This document shows, one piece after another, positions 881-11,174 of a stretch of DNA of 11,174 bases; position 1 is the stretch's first letter, and each line of letters starts with the position of its first letter. The notes beneath the pieces are model-generated. The model was not told the DNA's origin and ran no database searches. It was given only the letters and a program-made list of their open reading frames with translations. The position numbers and the translations under genes are program-made. Source of the stretch: an uncultured Oscillibacter sp. (GTDB lineage: Bacteria; Bacillota; Clostridia; Oscillospirales; Oscillospiraceae); contig CAOJHG010000028.1 of assembly GCA_948435975.1 (NCBI GenBank), forward strand, positions 1-11,174, in the 5' to 3' direction.

Positions 881-937
881 TCAAAGCTCCTTTCAGAGAA
901 AAACGCCATTGAAATCTCAGGGCGAAAAATATAGAGA

Positions 938-966
938 AGTATATCACAGAAGCTTCGCCGTCACAA
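938..966 (-). promoter_or_regulatory. Predicted sigma-A promoter of ftsH
   Basis: Read on the minus strand, TTGTGA (-35, bases 961-966, 4 of 6 to consensus) is separated by exactly 17 bases from TATACT (-10, bases 938-943, 5 of 6). Transcription would start near base 931, giving a leader of about 54 bases before the ftsH ATG at 877. Read by eye only. Confidence 0.65.
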
Positions 967-1028
967 GAGCGGGAATTATTTTTTCATGAAGTTTCTGTAA
1001 ATTCATACTTTATTGTCTCCCCAGCCTA

Positions 1029-1037
1029 TGTTATACT
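1029..1037 (+). promoter_or_regulatory. Predicted extended -10 promoter for rlmB
   Basis: TGTTATACT is an extended -10 element: TG at 1029-1030, one base, then TATACT at 1032-1037 (5 of 6 to consensus). The hexamer 17 bases upstream (TTTATT, 1009-1014) is a poor -35, so recognition would depend on the extended -10. The expected start is near 1044, giving a leader of about 95 bases before rlmB. With the ftsH promoter it makes a divergent promoter region between 878 and 1138. Confidence 0.55.
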
Positions 1038-1084
1038 ATAAACTGATACAATAGAGCCGCAGGCCAGGCTGGAAAAAATCACAG

Positions 1085-1102
1085 TCTTCCCTGTGGGGAA
1101 GA
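1085..1102 (+). other. Perfect 7-bp hairpin in the rlmB leader
   Basis: TCTTCCC (1085-1091), loop TGTG, GGGAAGA (1096-1102) form a perfect inverted repeat about 25 bases before the AAAGGAG ribosome site (1127-1133). It is not followed by a T-run, so it is not a terminator as it stands. Function unknown; it might be a transcript-stabilising structure, a protein-binding site, or chance. Confidence 0.45.
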
Positions 1103-1138
1103 GGCCAAACGAATCAGAACATACACAAAGGAGCGCTT

Positions 1139-1912
1139 ATGAACGAAGAAACGACCATCCTCGCCGGGGCTGACGGCATTATTGAGGGCCGAAACGCCGT
1201 GCTGGAGGCTTTGCGGGCCGGGACGGCGATTGATAAGATTTACCTGCAAAAAGGCGAAACGGACAAAACCTTAGGGCATATCGCCTCCAAAGCCCGCGCC
1301 GCCGGGACCGTGGTGGCGGAGGCGGACCGGAGGCAGCTGGACGCCACGAGCCGGACCCATGCCCACCAGGGAGTGATTGCTCTGGCGGCGGTGCGGGAAT
1401 ATGCCAGCGTGGACAGCATCCTGCAAGCGGCGGCAGAAAAGGGGGAACCGCCTCTGCTGGTGGTCTGCGACGAGCTCAGCGACCCGCACAACCTGGGCGC
1501 GGTTATCCGAACGGCGGAATGTGCGGGGGCTCATGGCGTCATCATCCCCAAACGCCGCAGCGCCGGACTGACCGCAGTGGTTGCAAAGACTTCCGCCGGA
1601 GCGGTGGCCCATGTGCCGGTGGCAAGGGTGCCGAATCTGCCAGCGCTGCTGAAGGATTTGAAGAAGCGGGGCATGTGGATCTACGGTACGGCGGCGGATG
1701 GGACCACTCCCCTTTACCATGCGGACTTAAAGGGTCCTGCCGCCGTCGTCATTGGCAGCGAGGGCAGCGGAATGAGCCGCCTGGTGTCTGAAACCTGTGA
1801 TTTTCTGGTCAGTATCCCAATGCGCGGGAAACTGAACTCCCTGAACGCTTCTGCGGCGGCGGCGATCCTTCTCTACGAGGCGGTGCGCCAGCGTCTGGAG
1901 GCAGGAACTTGA
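1139..1912 (+). CDS. rlmB: 23S rRNA (guanosine-2'-O-)-methyltransferase RlmB-like (SpoU/TrmH family)
   Basis: SAM-dependent 2'-O-ribose methyltransferase of the SPOUT class. The closest well-known member is RlmB, which methylates a guanosine of 23S rRNA in the peptidyl-transferase region. The protein has 257 residues, normal for the family. The N-terminal substrate-binding domain (about 13-85) starts with the typical EGRNAVLEAL. The knotted SpoU domain (about 106-248) shows all three motifs: motif 1 DPHNLGAVIRTAE (Asn118, Arg124), motif 2 VIGSEGSGMS (205-213), and motif 3 LNSLNASAAAAILLYE (232-247). The start is backed by AAAGGAG at 1127-1133, five bases before the ATG. A 10-base gap separates its stop from the next gene, suggesting co-transcription. 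Other family members methylate tRNA or other rRNA positions, so the exact target is inferred; the family is certain. Confidence 0.93.
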   Translation: MNEETTILAGADGIIEGRNAVLEALRAGTAIDKIYLQKGETDKTLGHIASKARAAGTVVAEADRRQLDATSRTHAHQGVIALAAVREYASVDSILQAAAEKGEPPLLVVCDELSDPHNLGAVIRTAECAGAHGVIIPKRRSAGLTAVVAKTSAGAVAHVPVARVPNLPALLKDLKKRGMWIYGTAADGTTPLYHADLKGPAAVVIGSEGSGMSRLVSETCDFLVSIPMRGKLNSLNASAAAAILLYEAVRQRLEAGT

Positions 1913-1922
1913 GAGGAACGCT

Positions 1923-4298
1923 ATGACGCCCAAGGAAGAGAAAAAAATTGAAAGCACCGCGAAAAATAAAATCGTATCCATCCCCGCCGCAGTAACGGAA
2001 GTCCCCCCGTCAGACGAGGAGTTTTCCCTGGAAGAAATCCTTGCGGAGTACGGAAAAAGCCTGGAGGAGCATCTGCTGCAAGGCGCGGAAGAAGGTCTGG
2101 AAATTCCGGACTCTCCCGCGGCCCCGGAAGCGCCCCCTCAGCCAGAAGTCCCGCCTGCCGGGAACGTCCCGGACCTGGCAGAACAGGCGCCGCCGGAGAC
2201 GCCGAAGGCCCCCAAGCCTGAGCCTGCCGCCCCGCCGGAAGCCCCCGCTTCTCAAAAACACGACTCACCCCCGGAAGAGCCGCAGCATGTACCGGGACCG
2301 GATGTTTCCTTGGAAGAGCTTCTGCATATTCCGGAGCTTCTCGGCCTCACGCCGGAATCCCCGCCCCCAGAGAATCCAAACACCCCAGAATCCTCCGCTC
2401 CCCCAGAAGAGCCGCCCTCCCCTCAGGAAGTCCCGCCGCCCATTCCGGAAGCCGGTCCCGCGCCGCCTGTAGACTCGGAACGCCGCGCTTCCCGGTCCAT
2501 CTCCATCGAGGACGTGGTGAACTACACGGTAGACGCCGTGATGGAGGAACAGTCGGAACCCATTCTCCCAGCGAAAAAATGGAGCTTTTTCCAGCGCAGC
2601 CGTTATACGGAGGAGGACACAGAGCACATCCCCCCTCCGCCGGAACCGGAACCCGAATACGACCCTGAACCCATCGGCCCGGAACCCGACTTGTGGGAGG
2701 CCGCCATGGACCACCGCCGGACCTGCCTCCGTGCCAGACGCACCCGCTTTCCCGCTCTGGTGGCGGCGCTGCTCCCTACGCTGGTTCTCCTGGTCGAGCG
2801 GCGGGGCTTCCTGGTTCCCTTCTGGTCTGGAAACCCGCGCTTTCAGAGCTTCACCCTTCTGGCCTGTCTGGGGATCACCGCCCTTTTGAGCCGTCATGTG
2901 TTCCTCAAGGGGGCCTCTATGCTTCTCCGCGGCCGCTGCGTCAGTGAACTGCTGGTGTCCCTCTCCGCCCTGGTGTCTGCGGCGGACTGCGTGGCCCGTC
3001 TCCACCTGGCCGAGAGAAGCGATGCCATGCCCTATGCCGCCGTGAGCTGTCTGGCCCTGGCAATCGCACAGTGGGGCATAAGCTGGGAGAGCCAGGGAAA
3101 TTACGACATGTTCCGCGCCGCCTCCGTGGACCCCGAGCCGCCCTACTTAGTCACCAATACGGACTGCGGGGCCTGCAAGCAGCGGGGAGCGATTCCCGGC
3201 TTCTACACCACCGCCGCACGGGATGACATCGCCACCCTCCTCCAGGCCGCGCTGCTGCCGGTCTTCACTGTGGCCGCCATCGTCTTTGCGGGCCTCAGCT
3301 CTTTCGGCCAGGAACGGAGCGCCGATTTTCTCCTGAACTGGTCCGCAGCTCTATGCGCGGCGGGCACCTTCTCCCTGCCTCTGTGCTGGAGCCTCCCCTG
3401 GTCCCGCCTGTCCAGGCACCTGCAAAAAACCGGCTGTGCAGTGGCCTCCTGGTCCGGGGCGCAGAAAATCAGCGCCCGCCGGTGCATGATCGTCACGGAC
3501 GCAGATTTGTTTCCCCCGGGAACTATCCGCTTCAATGGCCGGAAAGTCTATGGGGAAGACCCCGGCAAGGCTGTTTCTTACGCCGCCTCCATGGCCCGCG
3601 CCGCCGGATGCGGTCTGGAGCGCCTCTTTGACGGCCTGATTCGAAGCGAAGGGGGCATGTATGAAACTGTCACGGATTTCAGCTTCTACGAGGAAGGCGG
3701 ATATGCGGGCACCATTCACGGAGAGTTCGTGCTGATGGGCACCGCGAACTTTTTGAAGAAGATGGACGTGCGCCTTCCCGGGGACATCCATCTGAAAACC
3801 GGCGTCTTCCTGGCGGTGGACCATCATTTGATTGCGGTTTTCGCCGTGAAATACAATCCGTCGGAGAACGTGGATTTTGCCCTGCGGATGATGCGGCGCA
3901 GTCACATCCAGCCCATCCTGGCCTCTCGGGACCCCAGCATCACCCCCGCTCTGATCCGCCGGAAGTTCAGCAAAAGCGTCCGGCTGGAGTATCCGAGCCT
4001 GACAGAGCGGGTGGCCCTCAGTGAAGCGGAACACGACCACGACCTGCCAAGGGCCCTTCTGTTCCGGGAAGGACTGCTGCCCTATGCCGAGGCGGTGGCG
4101 GGAAGCCTGCGGCTGTGCAAGGCGGTGCGGCGGGCGATTGCGCTGTCTCTGCTGGGGAGCTGGGCGGGCCTTCTGCTGGCGTTTTACCTGGTTTCTCTGG
4201 GGCAGTATACGCTGCTGACGCCGCTGGCTCTGGAGGTCTTCCTCCTGCTGTGGACCCTCCCGGTGCTGCTGATGGCCGACTGGACGAAACGCTATTGA
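1923..4298 (+). CDS. Degenerate P1B-type ATPase-like membrane protein with long proline-rich N-terminal tail
   Basis: No gene name is recognised. The 791 residues begin with a Pro/Glu-rich, probably disordered cytoplasmic tail (1-260). About eight predicted membrane segments follow (near 275-292, 308-329, 340-360, 369-386, 438-458, 470-489, 739-760, 764-786), with a large cytoplasmic loop at 490-738; this spacing is that of P1B heavy-metal ATPases. The loop keeps faint family texture: a post-M4 stretch up to VTDADLFPPGT (524-534) where DKTGT should be, a nucleotide-domain-like stretch with VLMGTANFL (603-611), and ILASRD (665-670) where TGD should be. There is no TGES loop (only about 50 residues between the fourth and fifth segments), no DKTGT, no GDGxND and no CPC; M4 has SLPLCW. 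I infer a catalytically dead pseudo-ATPase, possibly a scaffold or sensor. The start is preceded by a modest AGAGGA site. The frame is intact over its length, so it is not an obvious pseudogene. Function unknown. Confidence 0.75.
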   Translation: MTPKEEKKIESTAKNKIVSIPAAVTEVPPSDEEFSLEEILAEYGKSLEEHLLQGAEEGLEIPDSPAAPEAPPQPEVPPAGNVPDLAEQAPPETPKAPKPEPAAPPEAPASQKHDSPPEEPQHVPGPDVSLEELLHIPELLGLTPESPPPENPNTPESSAPPEEPPSPQEVPPPIPEAGPAPPVDSERRASRSISIEDVVNYTVDAVMEEQSEPILPAKKWSFFQRSRYTEEDTEHIPPPPEPEPEYDPEPIGPEPDLWEAAMDHRRTCLRARRTRFPALVAALLPTLVLLVERRGFLVPFWSGNPRFQSFTLLACLGITALLSRHVFLKGASMLLRGRCVSELLVSLSALVSAADCVARLHLAERSDAMPYAAVSCLALAIAQWGISWESQGNYDMFRAASVDPEPPYLVTNTDCGACKQRGAIPGFYTTAARDDIATLLQAALLPVFTVAAIVFAGLSSFGQERSADFLLNWSAALCAAGTFSLPLCWSLPWSRLSRHLQKTGCAVASWSGAQKISARRCMIVTDADLFPPGTIRFNGRKVYGEDPGKAVSYAASMARAAGCGLERLFDGLIRSEGGMYETVTDFSFYEEGGYAGTIHGEFVLMGTANFLKKMDVRLPGDIHLKTGVFLAVDHHLIAVFAVKYNPSENVDFALRMMRRSHIQPILASRDPSITPALIRRKFSKSVRLEYPSLTERVALSEAEHDHDLPRALLFREGLLPYAEAVAGSLRLCKAVRRAIALSLLGSWAGLLLAFYLVSLGQYTLLTPLALEVFLLLWTLPVLLMADWTKRY

Positions 4299-4358
4299 AT
4301 TTCTTAAAATTTTTCAATCCCCATGCAATAAAACGCGCTTCTTTTACGTTGATATTTC

Positions 4359-4363
4359 GGAGG
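4359..4363 (+). promoter_or_regulatory. Ribosome site of the sigma factor gene
   Basis: GGAGG (4359-4363) lies eight bases before the first of two tandem ATG codons (4372 and 4375), favouring 4372. The 73-base gap 4299-4371 holds no sigma-A promoter that I could recognise, so expression may come from read-through or from a promoter read by an alternative sigma factor. Confidence 0.6.
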
Positions 4364-4371
4364 GATTCCTC

Positions 4372-4908
4372 ATGATGCTCTTCGTGACCCCCGCGCCCGG
4401 CAGCGGTCTGGATGCCTGCATTTCCCGCATTGCCGCCGGAGATCGGGACGCCCTGGCCAGCTTCTACCAGCAGACCCGCGCCGCCGCCTACGGTTTTGCT
4501 CTGTCTCTTCTGAAAAACGGCCCTGACGCGGAGGATGTGCTCCATGACGCATACCTTCGGGTTTGGAACAGCGCCGCAAACTACCGCCCGCAGGAAAAGT
4601 CTATGGCCTGGCTGCTGTCCATCGTCCGAAACCTGGCCCTGGACTGCCTCCGCGCCCGGTCCCGCACCCAGCCCCTGGAAGATCATTCCCGCGATTACTC
4701 CCCATCTGTCACAGCAGAGGACCGCCTTCTGCTCTCCGCCCTGCTGGACGGCCTGGGGGAAGAGGAGCGGCAAATCGTAGTCCTCCATGCTCTGGGCGGG
4801 CTGAAGCACCGGGAGACCGCCGCCCTGCTGGGTCTGCCGCTGCCCACCGTCCTATCCAAATACAGCCGGGCCATGAAGAAGCTGCGCAATGCGCTGGAAG
4901 AATCCTAA
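4372..4908 (+). CDS. ECF-type RNA polymerase sigma factor
   Basis: Alternative sigma factor of 178 residues that would direct RNA polymerase to a dedicated set of promoters and be held by the membrane anti-sigma factor encoded next. Region 2 spans about 16-97 and has the usual signature: aromatic/hydrophobic helix FYQQTRAAAYGFALSLL, the acidic DAEDVLHDAYLRVW stretch (52-65) that contacts core polymerase, and SMAWLLSIVRNLALDCLRAR (77-96) for -10 recognition. A short linker with acidic residues precedes region 4 (about 118-175), which contains a helix-turn-helix of the type HRETAALLGLPLPTVLSKYSRAMKKL. There is no SigI-type C-terminal domain, so it is an ECF-type factor although its partner resembles RsgI. 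The stop is followed by the anti-sigma gene within 25 bases, so the two are translated from one transcript. The regulon cannot be read from this window. Confidence 0.93.
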   Translation: MMLFVTPAPGSGLDACISRIAAGDRDALASFYQQTRAAAYGFALSLLKNGPDAEDVLHDAYLRVWNSAANYRPQEKSMAWLLSIVRNLALDCLRARSRTQPLEDHSRDYSPSVTAEDRLLLSALLDGLGEEERQIVVLHALGGLKHRETAALLGLPLPTVLSKYSRAMKKLRNALEES

Positions 4909-4915
4909 TTATGCG

Positions 4916-4923
4916 AAAGGAGG
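4916..4923 (+). promoter_or_regulatory. Ribosome site that fixes the anti-sigma factor start
   Basis: AAAGGAGG (4916-4923) lies eight bases before ATG 4932. An in-frame ATG at 4911 lies upstream of this site and has no ribosome site of its own, so 4932 is chosen as the start. Confidence 0.8.
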
Positions 4924-4931
4924 CCCCTGAT

Positions 4932-6698
4932 ATGCGTGACCAAGATTTAGAGCAGCGCCTGCGGACCGCCATGGAACACGCCGCCCCAGACCCGCTGGCC
5001 CGTATCCTCGCCTCCTGTGCAGAGCAGAAAGGAAGCGTGAATTCTGTGGAAAATGAAAAGAAAACGCGTATCCCCTTGTTTGCCCGCCGCCGCGCTGTGG
5101 CCGTGATGGCGGCGCTGGTGCTGGTGGCGGCCTGCGGCTTCGGATGGCAGAGCTGGAACGCCTCCAAAGCCGTTGCGTCCGTGGTGTCTCTGGACGTGAA
5201 CCCCAGCATCCAATTGGAAGTCAACAACCGGGAAGAGGTCCTGTCCGCCCAGCCTCTGAACAAAGACGCCTGGGAGATCCTGAACGGCATGGACCTCACA
5301 GGCGCTAAGCTGAATGTAGCCGTAAACGCCATTGTGGGTTCTCTGCTCCAGCACGGCTACCTTAGTGATATTGCCTCTGCCATCCTGATTTCTGTAGAGG
5401 ATAAGGACCCGCAGCGGGCAAGCCGTCTGGAGGCGTCGCTGAACGAGACCGTCACCGCCATGCTGCAAAACGCTTCCGGCGCGGCGGTTCTGACCCAGGT
5501 GATGACCTATGACGCCGGATTAGACGCCCAGGCGCAGAGCAGCAGCGTCTCCGTCGGCATGGCGCGGCTGATTCAGGATGTGATGGACCTGAACGGAAAT
5601 CTCGCCTTCGAGGACCTGGCGGGACTGACTATGGAGGAACTGCGCCAGCTCCGGGACATTGGCGCCCCCGGCCTGCCTATCGGGACCGGCGCGGCCTCCT
5701 ATGCGGCTCAGGAATACGCCGGGGTCCTGGAGATCGACTCCGTCACCGCAGACGTAGACCCTGAGCTGGACGAGCGCACCCCTTACTATAAGGTAGAGCT
5801 TCATCTGGCAGGCACAGGAGAATTTGATTACGAAGTAGACGCATACAGCGGCGAGGTGCTCAGAGGCATCCCCAATCTTCTCAGCATTTCCGTTCCCGCC
5901 CCCACCCCCGCTCCCGACAGCGCGTCCGGCGGCACGGACCAGACCCAGACCGCGCAAACGCCGTCCTCATCTGCCGCCAGCAGCTACATCGGAGAGAACC
6001 GGGCGAAGGAGGCCGCCCTCAGTCACGCTGGTCTGAAAGAGGCGGATACCACCTACTGCAACGCCTGGCTGGAGTACGAAAACGGCCGCCCCGAATGCTA
6101 CGAGGTGGAATTCTCCGCGGGCGGCATAGAGTACGAATACAAAATCGACCTCTACAGCGGCACGATCCTGAAAAGCCAGTACGAGACCTTTTACGCCCCT
6201 ACAGGCACAGACGCTCCCTCTGGCGGCATGGACGCCCTTGGGGACTACCTGGAAACCGTCTTTGCGGATGCGGGCGTCTCTGCCGGGGATGTGACCGGTC
6301 TCAATACCAAGCTGGACCATGAAGACGGCATCCCGGTCTATAAAGTGGAATTCCGCTGCAACGGGACAAAATACGAGTATGAGGTCAATGCTCAGGACGG
6401 CGCGATCCTCAAGCGGGAGCAGGAGCAGGACGACCGTACAGCTTCTCCGGCGCGCCCCTCCGTCCAAGCCCCCGCCGTCTCCCAGAATCCTACCTTCATC
6501 GGGGAAGCCGCCGCAAAACAGGCCGCGCTGGACCACGCTGGCGTCAGCGCCGGAGAAGCTTCGAAATTCAAGTGCGAGCTGGACCGGGACGATGGGCTTT
6601 ACCGGTACGAGATCGAGTTCAAGGCGGGCCGGACAGAATATGAATACGAGATTGACGCAGTAACTGGCGCAGTCCTGAAAGCGGAGATGGATGATTAA
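4932..6698 (+). CDS. RsgI-like membrane anti-sigma factor with extracytoplasmic PepSY repeats
   Basis: Probable anti-sigma partner of the preceding ECF factor (588 residues). Residues 1-53 form a cytoplasmic segment (DQDLEQRLRTAMEHAAPDPL at 3-22) that presumably binds sigma; it lacks the HxxxCxxC zinc motif of classical ZAS anti-sigma factors. A single membrane segment lies at about 54-71. Just outside is an RsgI-type middle domain (about 80-180) with VVSLDVNPSIQLEVN (84-98); in RsgI proteins the Asn-Pro bond of this motif (here 90/91) is known to self-cleave. A helical region (about 183-250) follows, then four PepSY-like repeats at about 254-311 (weakest), 352-414, 437-495 and 521-583. Each ends with a Y-x-Y-x-[IV] strand and a sugar-free turn of the type D-x-x-[ST]G-x-[IV]L. 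Thr/Pro/Ser-rich linkers separate repeats. The PepSY array probably senses or binds something outside the membrane; the signal is unknown. A terminator follows at 6739. Confidence 0.85.
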   Translation: MRDQDLEQRLRTAMEHAAPDPLARILASCAEQKGSVNSVENEKKTRIPLFARRRAVAVMAALVLVAACGFGWQSWNASKAVASVVSLDVNPSIQLEVNNREEVLSAQPLNKDAWEILNGMDLTGAKLNVAVNAIVGSLLQHGYLSDIASAILISVEDKDPQRASRLEASLNETVTAMLQNASGAAVLTQVMTYDAGLDAQAQSSSVSVGMARLIQDVMDLNGNLAFEDLAGLTMEELRQLRDIGAPGLPIGTGAASYAAQEYAGVLEIDSVTADVDPELDERTPYYKVELHLAGTGEFDYEVDAYSGEVLRGIPNLLSISVPAPTPAPDSASGGTDQTQTAQTPSSSAASSYIGENRAKEAALSHAGLKEADTTYCNAWLEYENGRPECYEVEFSAGGIEYEYKIDLYSGTILKSQYETFYAPTGTDAPSGGMDALGDYLETVFADAGVSAGDVTGLNTKLDHEDGIPVYKVEFRCNGTKYEYEVNAQDGAILKREQEQDDRTASPARPSVQAPAVSQNPTFIGEAAAKQAALDHAGVSAGEASKFKCELDRDDGLYRYEIEFKAGRTEYEYEIDAVTGAVLKAEMDD

Positions 6699-7878: not shown

Positions 7879-7880
7879 AT

Positions 7881-7885
7881 GGAGG
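7881..7885 (+). promoter_or_regulatory. Ribosome site that fixes the DUF2156/GNAT start
   Basis: GGAGG lies five bases before ATG 7891. The upstream in-frame ATG at 7879 overlaps this site and is preceded only by the GC hairpin, so 7891 is preferred. Confidence 0.7.
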
Positions 7886-7890
7886 TTATC

Positions 7891-9291
7891 ATGGAGTTCA
7901 AGCCAGTGACGAAACAGGACGCGGCAAAGCTGCGGAAATACTACAAAAACTGCAATTACGGTCTGTGCGAGTACTCTGTGGGCACAAAGCTGATGTGGCG
8001 GCCGAAGCTCCATCCCGCCTGGACGGAAACCGCCGGGTGTCTGGTGGTCCGGAACGAGGATGGGGACCGCTGGGTCTTTGACTACCCCGTTCCCGGCCTC
8101 GAAGGAGATGAAGACGCCGCCCTGACCGCCATCGAGTCCTACTGCCTGGAGCGGGGAAAGCTGCCGGTCATCTCCGTGGTGCCCGAATGCAAGGCGGCCC
8201 GGCTCCTGGCTCGCTATCCCTATGTCCGGGTCAGCGATATCCGCACCTGGAGGGATTATGTCTATTACCGGGAGGACCTGCAATTCTTCTCCGGGCGGCG
8301 CTACTCCGGCCAGCGGAACCATATCAAGAAATTCCGCAGGCAGTGGCCAGACGCTTCTATCCGGACCTTGACAGCCGCGGACGCCCCTGCGGTCGAGCAG
8401 TTCTGGCAGGACTATGAGGCGGAGTTCCCCAAGGGCGAGAACGCCAAGGCCAGAAACGAGCTCCAGTTGGCAAAGAAGATGCTGAAAATGGCTGGGAAGG
8501 CCTGGTTCACAGCCGGAGGCATGTTCGACGGGAACAAGCTGATTGCCCTGTCTCTGGCGGAAAAGTGCGGAGACACCTTGATTATCCACATTGAGAAGGC
8601 CCTCTATTCTTATACTGGCATTTATCCCGCGTTTGTCCAGGCCTTCGCCGACGCCTTTGGAAAGGACTGCCAATGGCTCAACCGGGAGGATGACGCGGCG
8701 GATCGGGGACTGCGGACCTCCAAGCTCCAGTATGGTCCCGCAAAGCTGGCGCCGAAATACTGTTTTGAGCCTCAGAATGAGCTTTTGCGCCATGTGGAGG
8801 CCATCCCTGTCCTGCAAACCGAGCGGCTGACCCTCTCCGCCCTGACAGAAGCCGACATCCCCGCGTACAACGCACTGGTTTTGGATACCGAGCGTAACCG
8901 CTGGTGGGGCTATGACGACGCAGCCGGCCTTGGCGGACCGGTGGAGGCCCGCAGCTTCTTCGACGTGGCCCAGCGGGATTTCAGCAACCGCCTGGCAGTA
9001 AACTTTGCCGTCCGGCTGGATGGGAAGCTGATTGGCGAAGCAGTTCTGTACAACTTCGACTGCCGGGGCGGCGCAGAGCTGGGGTGCCGGATCGACCGGG
9101 CCTATGACGGCAAGGGTTATGGAACGGAAGCCTTTGCCGCAGCGGCCAACTGGGGGCTGTATCAGGTCCATCTCAGCCGGGTAATCGCCAAGTGCTTCCA
9201 CGAAAACCCGGCCTCCTACAAGATGCTGTCCTCCTGTATGCGGAAATCCGGGGAGGACCAGCGCTTCACCTACTTTGAGAAGCTGGTATAA
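7891..9291 (+). CDS. DUF2156 (lysyl-phosphatidylglycerol synthase C-terminal-like) protein fused to a GNAT acetyltransferase
   Basis: A 466-residue, apparently soluble two-part protein. Residues 1-295 resemble the DUF2156 family, related to the catalytic part of phosphatidylglycerol lysyltransferases (a double GNAT fold that uses aminoacyl-tRNA). Typical stretches are YVYYREDLQFFSGRRYSGQR (123-142), NHIKKF (143-148) and a closing NREDDAADRGLRTSKLQYGP (264-283). Residues about 305-466 form a RimJ/RimL-type GNAT domain: QTERLTLSALTEADIPAY (309-326), the acetyl-CoA loop DGKGYGTEA (406-414) and HENPASYKML (437-446). There is no membrane part, so it is not an MprF. A plausible job is transfer of acyl or aminoacyl groups to a small substrate, protein or lipid; the substrate is not predictable. 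An 18-bp hairpin terminator follows immediately. Domain assignment is good, function open. Confidence 0.85.
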   Translation: MEFKPVTKQDAAKLRKYYKNCNYGLCEYSVGTKLMWRPKLHPAWTETAGCLVVRNEDGDRWVFDYPVPGLEGDEDAALTAIESYCLERGKLPVISVVPECKAARLLARYPYVRVSDIRTWRDYVYYREDLQFFSGRRYSGQRNHIKKFRRQWPDASIRTLTAADAPAVEQFWQDYEAEFPKGENAKARNELQLAKKMLKMAGKAWFTAGGMFDGNKLIALSLAEKCGDTLIIHIEKALYSYTGIYPAFVQAFADAFGKDCQWLNREDDAADRGLRTSKLQYGPAKLAPKYCFEPQNELLRHVEAIPVLQTERLTLSALTEADIPAYNALVLDTERNRWWGYDDAAGLGGPVEARSFFDVAQRDFSNRLAVNFAVRLDGKLIGEAVLYNFDCRGGAELGCRIDRAYDGKGYGTEAFAAAANWGLYQVHLSRVIAKCFHENPASYKMLSSCMRKSGEDQRFTYFEKLV

Positions 9292-9337: not shown

Positions 9338-9733
9338 TCACCAGTTCAGGCTTGCGGCAAAGCGGTCCAGGGCGCAGAGGGTCTCATACTTTCCCCGGTA
9401 GCCCACGCCGTCAATCACCGCGAAGGGCTGATAGGCAAACACCCTCAAAACCGTCCCGTCCGCCTTCTCCACGCTGAATATTGTCGGGTCCCCGTCGTAC
9501 TCCTGGTAGGACATATCCTTTTGATAAACCGTCAGGCCGTTCAGCAGCGGTGTGAGGCGGGCCGTCTCCTCTGCTGTCAATGTGATTTCCAAATCCGGCC
9601 AGCATTCCGCAGTCACCCGCAGGATATCCCCGGCCCGCAGCTCCTTCAGCGGCCTCCTTCCTGCGCACACACGCCCTAGAACCACTCCCGCCAGCGCCAA
9701 AACTGCCAAACCAATCATGAGCTTTTTCTTCAT
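9338..9733 (-). CDS. Small membrane-anchored extracytoplasmic protein of unknown function
   Basis: Not recognised. It encodes 131 residues starting MKKK, then a hydrophobic stretch (5-20) that can act as an uncleaved anchor or signal peptide, and a soluble remainder of about 105 residues. The cysteine at 23 (GRVC) does not fit a lipobox, so it is not an obvious lipoprotein. The outer part has an alternating strand-and-turn look (ILRVTAECWPDLEITLTAEE, 37-56; DGTVLRVFAYQPFAVIDG, 92-109), suggesting a small beta-rich domain. AAAGGAG (9743-9749 on the minus strand) lies nine bases before the ATG. It converges with the preceding gene onto the shared terminator and diverges from the transketolase genes. 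No convincing promoter was found upstream. Coding status is supported by ribosome site, signal-like N-terminus and terminator placement. Confidence 0.75.
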   Translation of the reverse strand: MKKKLMIGLAVLALAGVVLGRVCAGRRPLKELRAGDILRVTAECWPDLEITLTAEETARLTPLLNGLTVYQKDMSYQEYDGDPTIFSVEKADGTVLRVFAYQPFAVIDGVGYRGKYETLCALDRFAASLNW

Positions 9734-9915: not shown

Positions 9916-9972
9916 AGGAGTATCGACTATCTGCAAAACGGCATGATATCAACAGGAAAGGAAGAGGCTCTC

Positions 9973-10806
9973 ATGAACGAGAAAAAGTGCAAAGTCCTGG
10001 CTGCCGAAATTCGCCTGGAGACCTTGAAGATCATCCACGCGAGAGGCTTTGGTCACGTGGGCGGCTCTATGGACCTGGCGGACCTGATGGCGGTACTCTA
10101 TGGCGAGGTCATGAAATTCGACCCGAAAAATCCCCGCTGGGAGGACCGGGACTGGCTGGTAATGTCCAAGGGCCACGCAGGTCCCGTCGCTTACGCCACT
10201 TATGGCCTTATGGGCTATTATCCGATTGAGGAGGCGTACACCCTCAATCAGCCCCACACGAAGTTTCCAAGCCACACGGACCGGAAGCTCACCCCCGGCG
10301 TGGACCTGACCACCGGTTCCTTGGGCCAAGGCGTCTCCACCGCTATGGGCGCGGCGCTGGGCAACAAGATCGACGGACGGGACAGCCATGTTTTCGTCAT
10401 CGTCGGGGACGGCGAGGCAGACGAAGGACAGGTCTGGGAGGGCCTCCATTTCGCCTATGCCCACAAGCTGGATAATGTTATCGTCTTTTTGGACCGGAAC
10501 GGGTATCAGTTGGACGGCGCTACGGACGACATCCTTCCCCACGGCGACCTTGCAAAGAAGGCGGAATCCTTCGGCCTGTATACCCAGGTCATTGACGGCC
10601 ACGACGTGAAGGCCATTTACGACGCCATCCAGAACGCCTATTTCACAAAGGGCATGCCAAGCTGTATCGTGCTGGACACCATCAAGGGCAAGGGCGCCAC
10701 CTTTGCCGAGCCGAAGCACGAGCACTCCTCTCAGCCCAAGGAGGAGGCGTGGCAGGAAGCCCTTGCCGCGGCGGAAAAGGCCCTGGAAGAAATTCGGAAC
10801 GCTTGA
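9973..10806 (+). CDS. Transketolase, N-terminal (thiamine diphosphate-binding) subunit
   Basis: One half of a split transketolase, the enzyme of the non-oxidative pentose phosphate pathway that moves two-carbon units between sugar phosphates. The 277 residues carry the cofactor-binding half. Motifs: MSKGHAGPVAYA (64-75); TTGSLGQGVSTAMGAALG (113-130); and the thiamine diphosphate/Mg motif that begins GDGEADEGQVWEG (145-157) and closes at Asn176 in LDRNGYQLDG (173-182). Several starts are possible; ATG 9973 is chosen because AAAGGAAGAGG (9957-9967) precedes it, while in-frame ATG 9943 lacks a ribosome site and sits only about 20 bases after the predicted transcription start. The C-terminal subunit gene begins 16 bases after the stop, so both halves come from one transcript. 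Split transketolases are common in Clostridia. A dedicated paralogue such as a sugar-synthesis transketolase cannot be excluded. Confidence 0.93.
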   Translation: MNEKKCKVLAAEIRLETLKIIHARGFGHVGGSMDLADLMAVLYGEVMKFDPKNPRWEDRDWLVMSKGHAGPVAYATYGLMGYYPIEEAYTLNQPHTKFPSHTDRKLTPGVDLTTGSLGQGVSTAMGAALGNKIDGRDSHVFVIVGDGEADEGQVWEGLHFAYAHKLDNVIVFLDRNGYQLDGATDDILPHGDLAKKAESFGLYTQVIDGHDVKAIYDAIQNAYFTKGMPSCIVLDTIKGKGATFAEPKHEHSSQPKEEAWQEALAAAEKALEEIRNA

Positions 10807-10821
10807 GGGAGGGTGCGAGAG

Positions 10822-11174
10822 ATGAACGTGAATCTGATTGGCAAGCATGAAAAGGATTCCCGGGCCTTCCGGGACGCTCTGGCGCTGACGCTGAATGAAA
10901 TGATGGCGGAGGACAAGTCCATCTGCTATGTGGACTGCGACCTGATGAGCTGCATCAACACCAAGCAGCTCCAAAAGAACTATCCCGACCGCGCAATCCA
11001 GGCCGGTATCGCCGAGGGAAACGCCGCCGGTGTAGCCGCAGGTCTGGCCGCTACAGGGAAGAAGGTCTTTTTCCATTCCTTCGGCACCTTCTCTTCCCGC
11101 CGGTGCTATGACCAAATCTACATGTCCGCCGCCTATGCCGGGCTGAGCGTCCGTGTACTGGGCAGCGACCCCGG
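10822..11174 (+). CDS. Transketolase, C-terminal subunit (5' part, cut by window edge)
   Basis: Second half of the split transketolase; only the first 117 residues are visible. It starts with MNVNLIGKHEKDSRAFRDAL and shows the pyrimidine-binding domain features of transketolase-type enzymes: an AFRDALALTLNEMM helix, DKSICYVDCDL where a partner domain strand is expected, and the conserved AGIAEGNAAGVAAGLAATGK (111-residue region, starting near 61) whose Glu in GIAEGN activates the cofactor, followed by VFFHSFGTFSSRRCYDQI. GGGAGGG (10807-10813) lies eight bases before the ATG. The gene is open to the right edge without a stop. Confidence 0.92.
   Translation, partial: MNVNLIGKHEKDSRAFRDALALTLNEMMAEDKSICYVDCDLMSCINTKQLQKNYPDRAIQAGIAEGNAAGVAAGLAATGKKVFFHSFGTFSSRRCYDQIYMSAAYAGLSVRVLGSDP

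Follow-up and report, generated by a model that had tools for sequence, protein, structure and literature searches.

A descendant of P1B-type metal pumps without their catalytic motifs, encoded behind rlmB in an uncultured Oscillibacter

Introduction

P-type ATPases are defined by a phosphorylated aspartate. An open reading frame (ORF) of an uncultured Oscillibacter sp. raises the question of what a protein built like a heavy-metal pump of this class may do when its catalytic motifs are missing. The ORF lies at positions 1923-4298 of the plus strand of an 11,174-nucleotide stretch of contig CAOJHG010000028.1 (referred to here as the window), and has 791 codons, an ATG start and no internal stop. 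A preliminary description, made from the sequence alone, had regarded its product as a catalytically dead descendant of a heavy-metal P-type ATPase. Scans of the 791-aa product against Pfam and NCBIfam gave no match at E ≤ 1, and its assignment as a pseudo-P1B-ATPase with an N-terminal tail was made by homologue searches.

Results

Layout and descent of the ORF product

In the ORF product, an acidic, proline-rich tail (residues 1-255; positions 1923-2687) precedes a membrane core (residues 257-791). An AlphaFold model covering residues 246-791 (model residue n is protein residue n+245) contains helices at residues 257-293, 305-335, 341-361, 372-401, 436-463, 466-503, 718-758 and 767-789, and these eight helices were taken as membrane spans because they follow the P1B plan. 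MA, MB, M1 and M2 (residues 257-401; positions 2691-3125) are followed by an actuator-domain remnant without its TGES core (residues 402-435; positions 3126-3227), M3 and M4 (residues 436-503; positions 3228-3431), a loop of residues 504-717 between the sixth and seventh helices, and M5 and M6 (residues 718-789; positions 4074-4289), which include the highly conserved W777. The eight segments and the large loop that had been read from the sequence are thus both present in the model. The fold of an N-domain was found at residues 534-645 (positions 3522-3857), and profile alignment and fold comparison placed within this true N-domain the stretch VLMGTANFL, which had been singled out as nucleotide-domain-like.

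Homology to eight-helix P1B pumps was found in both sequence and fold. In the structure-prediction comparison with P1B ATPases that had been proposed as a check, the predicted core had the P1B fold, and together with the match in sequence profiles this bears out the suggested descent from a heavy-metal P-type ATPase. Residues 247-505 by themselves matched P1B at 98.8% and the cytosolic loop by itself at 98.6%; the last two helices (M5 and M6) by themselves gave a match of only 6.4%, which is unconvincing. The profile comparison to P1B scored 259.9, against 35.6 for the best of 59 column-shuffled controls. A spurious likeness through membrane composition was ruled out, since the cytosolic loop matches alone and the match disappears when profiles are shuffled or reversed. 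The best scores of the family went to copper-type pumps, an observation from which no parent subfamily is claimed. When 17 family members were placed in a tree with 35 P-type ATPases, the family formed one clade (100/100). Its place inside the pumps could not be fixed in this 52-sequence tree, for which the software issued a warning of long-branch attraction.

Distribution in the order and selection

Of 7999 candidates scored in the first database search, 943 were relatives at E ≤ 0.001. Oscillibacter, Flavonifractor, Intestinimonas and Caproicibacterium are among the relatives that bear a name. In NCBI taxonomy, Oscillibacter and Caproicibacterium belong to the Oscillospiraceae; the order used in the genome counts, which we take to be the Oscillospirales of GTDB naming, is wider. 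Profile A2 (E ≤ 1e-45) matched in 273 of the 295 order genomes and in 217 of the 225 of good quality, with one match per genome among those listed except for G120, in which the match was in two pieces. The narrower first profile matched in 142 of the 295, and a single-protein query found 54 of 60 near relatives.

Eight good-quality genomes had no A2 match. G253 carries the gene in a diverged form (L256, 1091 aa, 119 bits), G063 holds its N-terminus, including the tail motif, at a contig end (L240), and G321 narrowly missed the threshold (E 4.0e-45) with a match that covers the expected span (columns 83-529) in a 1075-aa frame. The other five (G311, G099, G126, G140 and G169) gave only partial matches that resemble pumps. 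The rlmB orthologue was also missing from these five, which have weaker SpoU relatives only; the locus is therefore absent from the bin or was lost as a unit.

When 391 genomes of the class were searched, strong full-length matches, among those listed, occurred only in the order, in 17 of its 18 listed genomes (the miss being G140). The best listed hits outside the order reached at most 123 bits, covered profile columns of about 184-456 and resembled real pumps; all 13 of the best that were fetched contain DKTGT. A very diverged member outside the order would escape this search, as the weakest true member (L256) scores 119 bits and real pumps score 115 to 172.

The median dN/dS was 0.159 and the highest value 0.459 over 45 pairs, whose cores were 75-97% identical and in which each sequence was used once; for the window copy and its relative L002 it was 0.132. 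A value below 1 had been named as support for the preliminary description, which had also argued from the intact frame of 791 codons for a selected, non-pumping role. The open frame, the low dN/dS and the near order-wide retention support that argument. Purifying selection and long retention, as expected of a pseudoenzyme, were thus both found.

SpoIVA is, like the pseudo-pump gene, nearly universal (257 of the 295 order genomes). The pseudo-pump gene was present without a SpoIVA match in at least nine good genomes (G062, G064, G075, G089, G105, G113, G119, G141 and G145). A role in sporulation only is not supported by these nine, although the incompleteness of metagenome-assembled genomes blurs the comparison.

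Catalytic motifs

Motifs were mapped by alignment to L080, a P1B ATPase from the same order. The aspartate of DKTGT corresponds to T525, in a local stretch TDADLFPPG (residues 525-533; positions 3495-3521) that stands in place of DKTGTLTxG; the alignment is ungapped from M4 onward, which fixes the place of the replacement and confirms the earlier reading. T-G-D is replaced by S668-R669-D670 (positions 3924-3932) and E-H-P by G562-C563-G564; in the profile alignment, the lysine of the pump's LPQDK pairs with E695. After residue 706 (site 4040-4041), 33 P-domain residues including MVGDGIND are deleted, which accounts for the reported absence of GDGxND. The alignments likewise confirmed that M4 lacks the CPC metal site. 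The actuator has lost 74 residues in three pieces (47, 11 and 16), the first of which reaches into TGES, no residue of which was matched. None of the catalytic and metal-binding features of a P1B pump (DKTGT, GDGxND, TGD, a TGES actuator, CPC/CPx, E-H-P and an HMA domain) was found in the ORF product.

Two of the earlier claims had to be amended. The shrinkage of the actuator is real, but the remnant has about 34 residues, not 50. The sequence is indeed SRD where TGD was expected, but this is not a plain loss, because Thr or Ser was retained in 152 of 175 relatives and Asp in 173; it is the glycine that became Arg, in 140 of the 175.

The same catalytic motifs were gone in all 179 family members examined (three of which are fragments of <500 residues), as the proposed comparison of homologues was meant to reveal. 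Neither DKTG nor GDGxND occurred in any of the 179 cores, nor within the last 560 residues of any of 326 proteins. TGE was present at scattered positions in nine of the 179 cores, and EHP, counted at any position, in seven. Homology to an enzyme family combined with clade-wide loss of catalytic motifs, as a pseudoenzyme requires, is therefore seen across 179 members. Judged from its sequence, the ORF product is a P1B descendant and a pseudoenzyme, and is not a P-type ATPase by the defining motifs.

Several positions of the former active site were retained. At the old phosphorylation site these were F530 (168/175), P531 (164/175), D526 (159/175), D528 (153/175, with Glu in 16) and G533 (153/175), counts that are inflated at residues 525-533 because about 80 loci were found through the pattern TDxDLFPPG. 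That search, made with the closer set A4, gave 256 sites, of which 242 encoded relatives and 80 were kept; these 80 are uninformative on how common the pattern is. Elsewhere in the head, K541 (147/175), S/T668 (152/175), D670 (173/175), Y644 (172/175), G593 (174/175) and G606 (175/175) were retained. By alignment, DLFPxG at the former phosphorylation site is the signature of the family, and a few diverged members are without it too. The Caproicibacterium clade (f23) retains an Asp at the old place; it reads DAKDLF there, with the first Asp one residue ahead of its position in the clade of the window copy.

Mean conservation, computed on 175 sequences with an effective number of 63.6, was highest in residues 504-533 (1.99) and the N-domain (1.85), followed by M6 (1.78), M5 (1.69), M1 and M4 (both 1.62), M3 (1.56) and the second part of the P-domain (residues 646-716; 1.52), and was lowest in MB (1.49), M2 (1.48), the actuator remnant (1.33) and MA (1.32). 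The ten most conserved positions were G606, G593, D670, W777, Y644, F530, position 509 (mostly Gly), F569, G330 and F640; D670 is the only charged residue among them.

The N-terminal tail

Residues 1-245 contain 22% Pro and 18% Glu and carry a net charge of -36. The tail stands where P1B pumps have their metal-binding domains, and no HMA domain was found in it by Pfam at E ≤ 1; an N-terminal HMA domain is common, not universal, in P1B pumps. From its composition and the model of a distant relative (P0207), in which the tail mostly has pLDDT<50 and a helix at residues 12-30 coincides with the motif described below, the tail is probably disordered.

Near its tip, the tail carries the motif FSLEEILAEY (residues 34-43; positions 2022-2051). 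A motif of the [FY]SxEEILAE type was found in 248 of 326 proteins, always within the first 34 residues. The strict form occurred in 93 of the 179 family members; the 3577 other ORFs at the same loci, 877,129 residues in all, yielded no match. The motif was unmatched in the other 78 of the 326; the 30 of these that were inspected included shortened proteins, near variants and proteins without the motif. Several Caproicibacterium-type proteins are without it, and two members (L221 and L239) have hardly any tail. A second tail motif, ISIEDVVNYTVDAVMEE (residues 193-209; positions 2499-2549), was seen among near relatives of the window copy by alignment and N-terminal comparison. In the longer members of the f23 clade (P0207-P0326), the tail extends to about 450-700 residues and bears the additional conserved short motifs EDIYYGLQLK and FSYLFD.

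ARAGORN called a tRNA-Arg (tcg) at positions 2165-2241 of the minus strand, within the proline-rich tail region. The call is probably a false positive because no RNA family was found in an Rfam gathering scan of the window.

Genomic neighbourhood

The gene directly upstream is rlmB (positions 1139-1912, plus strand), which encodes a SpoU-family 23S rRNA 2'-O-methyltransferase as identified by Pfam and sequence. Ten bases separate its stop from the start of the ORF, with GAGGA in between. In all 157 loci where rlmB was found, it lay upstream on the same strand, with a median gap of 28 bases and a largest gap of 634. In 21 of the 22 loci where it was not found, the upstream sequence is shorter than 330 bases; the exception is L077, with 4022 upstream bases and no rlmB. 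Outside the order, sequence reading placed a SigH-like gene after rlmB in five of eight genomes, once with a YacP-like gene between them, an order which indicates that the pseudo-pump gene is an order-specific addition at the rlmB junction.

Neighbour clustering of 100 loci, 14 of which were left out because the gene was not among the chosen ORFs, found no constant neighbour other than rlmB across families. A translation-factor-like gene, by sequence reading, adjoins in six of 20 far loci. A scan of positions 900-5000 for promoters and terminators gave nothing useful.

Directly behind the pseudo-pump gene in the window lies a SigI/RsgI-like pair (positions 4372-6698, plus strand). Pfam identified the first product as an ECF-type sigma factor and the second as an RsgI_M protein, in which PepSY matched four times. 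RsgI-like genes turned up at four loci only (L001, L002, L003 and L005). Further downstream are one protein with an LPG_synthase_C domain and a GNAT acetyltransferase domain by Pfam (7879-9291, plus strand), a 131-aa ORF with a start that looks by eye like a hydrophobic signal peptide and no Pfam match (9338-9733, minus strand), and a split transketolase (9943-11172, plus strand), whose N-terminal half was assigned by Pfam and whose C-terminal-like half, by sequence reading, is an ORF open at the window end.

Discussion

Proposed role

The analysis shows that the ORF product descends from P1B pumps and keeps their fold without the catalytic motifs, and that its gene is under purifying selection, nearly universal in the order and fixed in its place behind rlmB. 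The protein has probably taken on a new, non-pumping job. The best explanation, to which we give a probability of about 0.6, is that the pseudo-pump serves as a fixed membrane platform that recruits or regulates and does not transport. A P1B metal pump would have become a pseudo-pump early in the order, behind rlmB. The eight-helix membrane body and the cytosolic head of N-domain and P-domain have been kept, the head without its phosphorylation parts (DKTGT and GDGxND), with the cycle-driving actuator nearly gone and the membrane metal site gone. In place of the metal-binding N-terminus there is a long, acidic tail, which carries a short helical motif close to its tip. On the resulting platform, the tail tip [FY]SxEEILAE may bind a partner from the cytosol, and docking or sensing of another partner, or of a ligand, may fall to the pseudo-catalytic head.

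Some observations weigh against this platform model or restrict it. The second part of the P-domain is no better conserved than the helices, so the head is not evenly constrained. Since some members have hardly any tail and others no match to the motif, a tether cannot be a requirement in every member. Around the former active site, D526, D528, K541, S/T668 and D670 are conserved, and a pure scaffold would not need them.

This cluster of conserved Asp, Ser and Lys residues may leave room for a ligand-sensing version. In such a sensor, the vestigial HAD site (D526-x-D528, S/T668-R-D670 and the DLFPxG loop) would bind a phosphate compound, a nucleotide or a metal ion without turnover, and the membrane body would relay the signal. 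Conservation of D526, D528, K541, S/T668, D670, G593 and G606 (147-175 of 175), and the peaks of mean conservation in residues 504-533 and the N-domain, are consistent with sensing, whereas the E-H-P contact aligned to G-C-G, the deleted GDGxND segment and a candidate site that is not fixed (the first Asp of the f23 clade being displaced by one residue) are not. We regard the sensor as rather unlikely.

It is improbable that the protein pairs with a true P-type pump of the same cell as its non-catalytic subunit, the dead half of a hetero-oligomer. True P-type ATPases were also present in 20 of 20 relatives searched, and the fold would presumably allow similar membrane contacts; however, the constant neighbour is rlmB, and no pump gene is prominent among the 25 commonest neighbour clusters.

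That the ten most conserved positions include a single charged residue, D670, makes catalysis or transport unlikely. Chemistry or transport by another route, as a phosphatase-like HAD activity or a passive channel, would draw on the retained membrane body, part of the HAD core and the DxD beside the old phosphorylation site. This explanation is improbable: the GDGxND segment, which we take to be HAD motif IV, is deleted, the LPQDK lysine, presumably that of HAD motif III, aligns with E695, CPC is missing, and the most conserved positions are Gly, Phe, Tyr, Trp and D670. Although the missing motifs would suit a recently decayed pump gene without function, this was ruled out, with a negligible chance remaining, by its presence in 273 of 295 order genomes, open frames, a median dN/dS of 0.159 and the same loss in 179 of 179 members.

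The membrane platform can be extended, tentatively and at odds below even, to an order-wide, single-copy core gene that would be the first known pseudo-P-type ATPase: a membrane hub with an acidic cytosolic line tipped by the EILAE helix. Its expression would be coupled to that of an rRNA methyltransferase gene, and the hub may connect the membrane with the function of the ribosome or the envelope.

Database names and significance

Relatives are named in databases as hypothetical protein, HAD family hydrolase, cation transport ATPase or Copper-transporting P-type ATPase; among the 120 listed of the 943 relatives from the first search, those named were hypothetical proteins. The pump-like names could mislead counts of metal pumps. 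Among the matches listed, no description of a dead P-type ATPase family or of an order-wide pseudoenzyme with the P-type fold was found in the literature, nor one of such a non-pumping role. The excerpted parts of a review (PMC10654040) anticipate more prokaryotic families and name no pseudo-pump. A family without the phosphorylated Asp and most of the machinery, yet present in 273 of 295 genomes, would be a clear case of a repurposed pump, and the conserved tail motif and fixed rlmB neighbour make its function directly testable.

Comparison with known systems

With P1B-ATPases of the CopA type (e.g., Legionella LpCopA, 3rfu/4bbj, and human ATP7B), the ORF product shares the MA-MB-M1-M6 plan, the break in M4, the strands of the P-domain and an N-domain fold with glycines at G593 and G606. 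In contrast to these pumps, it is without DKTGT, TGES, GDGxND, CPC and EHP, its actuator has only about 34 residues, its P-domain is 33 residues shorter, and a Pro/Glu-rich tail stands where no HMA metal-binding domain was found. KdpB, the P1A-ATPase, is catalytic, and was a weaker match than P1B in both sequence and fold. HAD phosphatases and hydrolases share the P-domain core and the S/T and Asp of TGD retained in the family, whereas in the family the phosphorylation motif is altered and the GDGxND segment deleted; Pfam Hydrolase matches below the cut-off were found in two of nine distant relatives scanned (E 0.011 and 0.16). With pseudokinases and iRhoms, pseudoenzymes that have turned into scaffolds or regulators, the ORF product shares an enzyme fold kept under selection after catalysis was lost.
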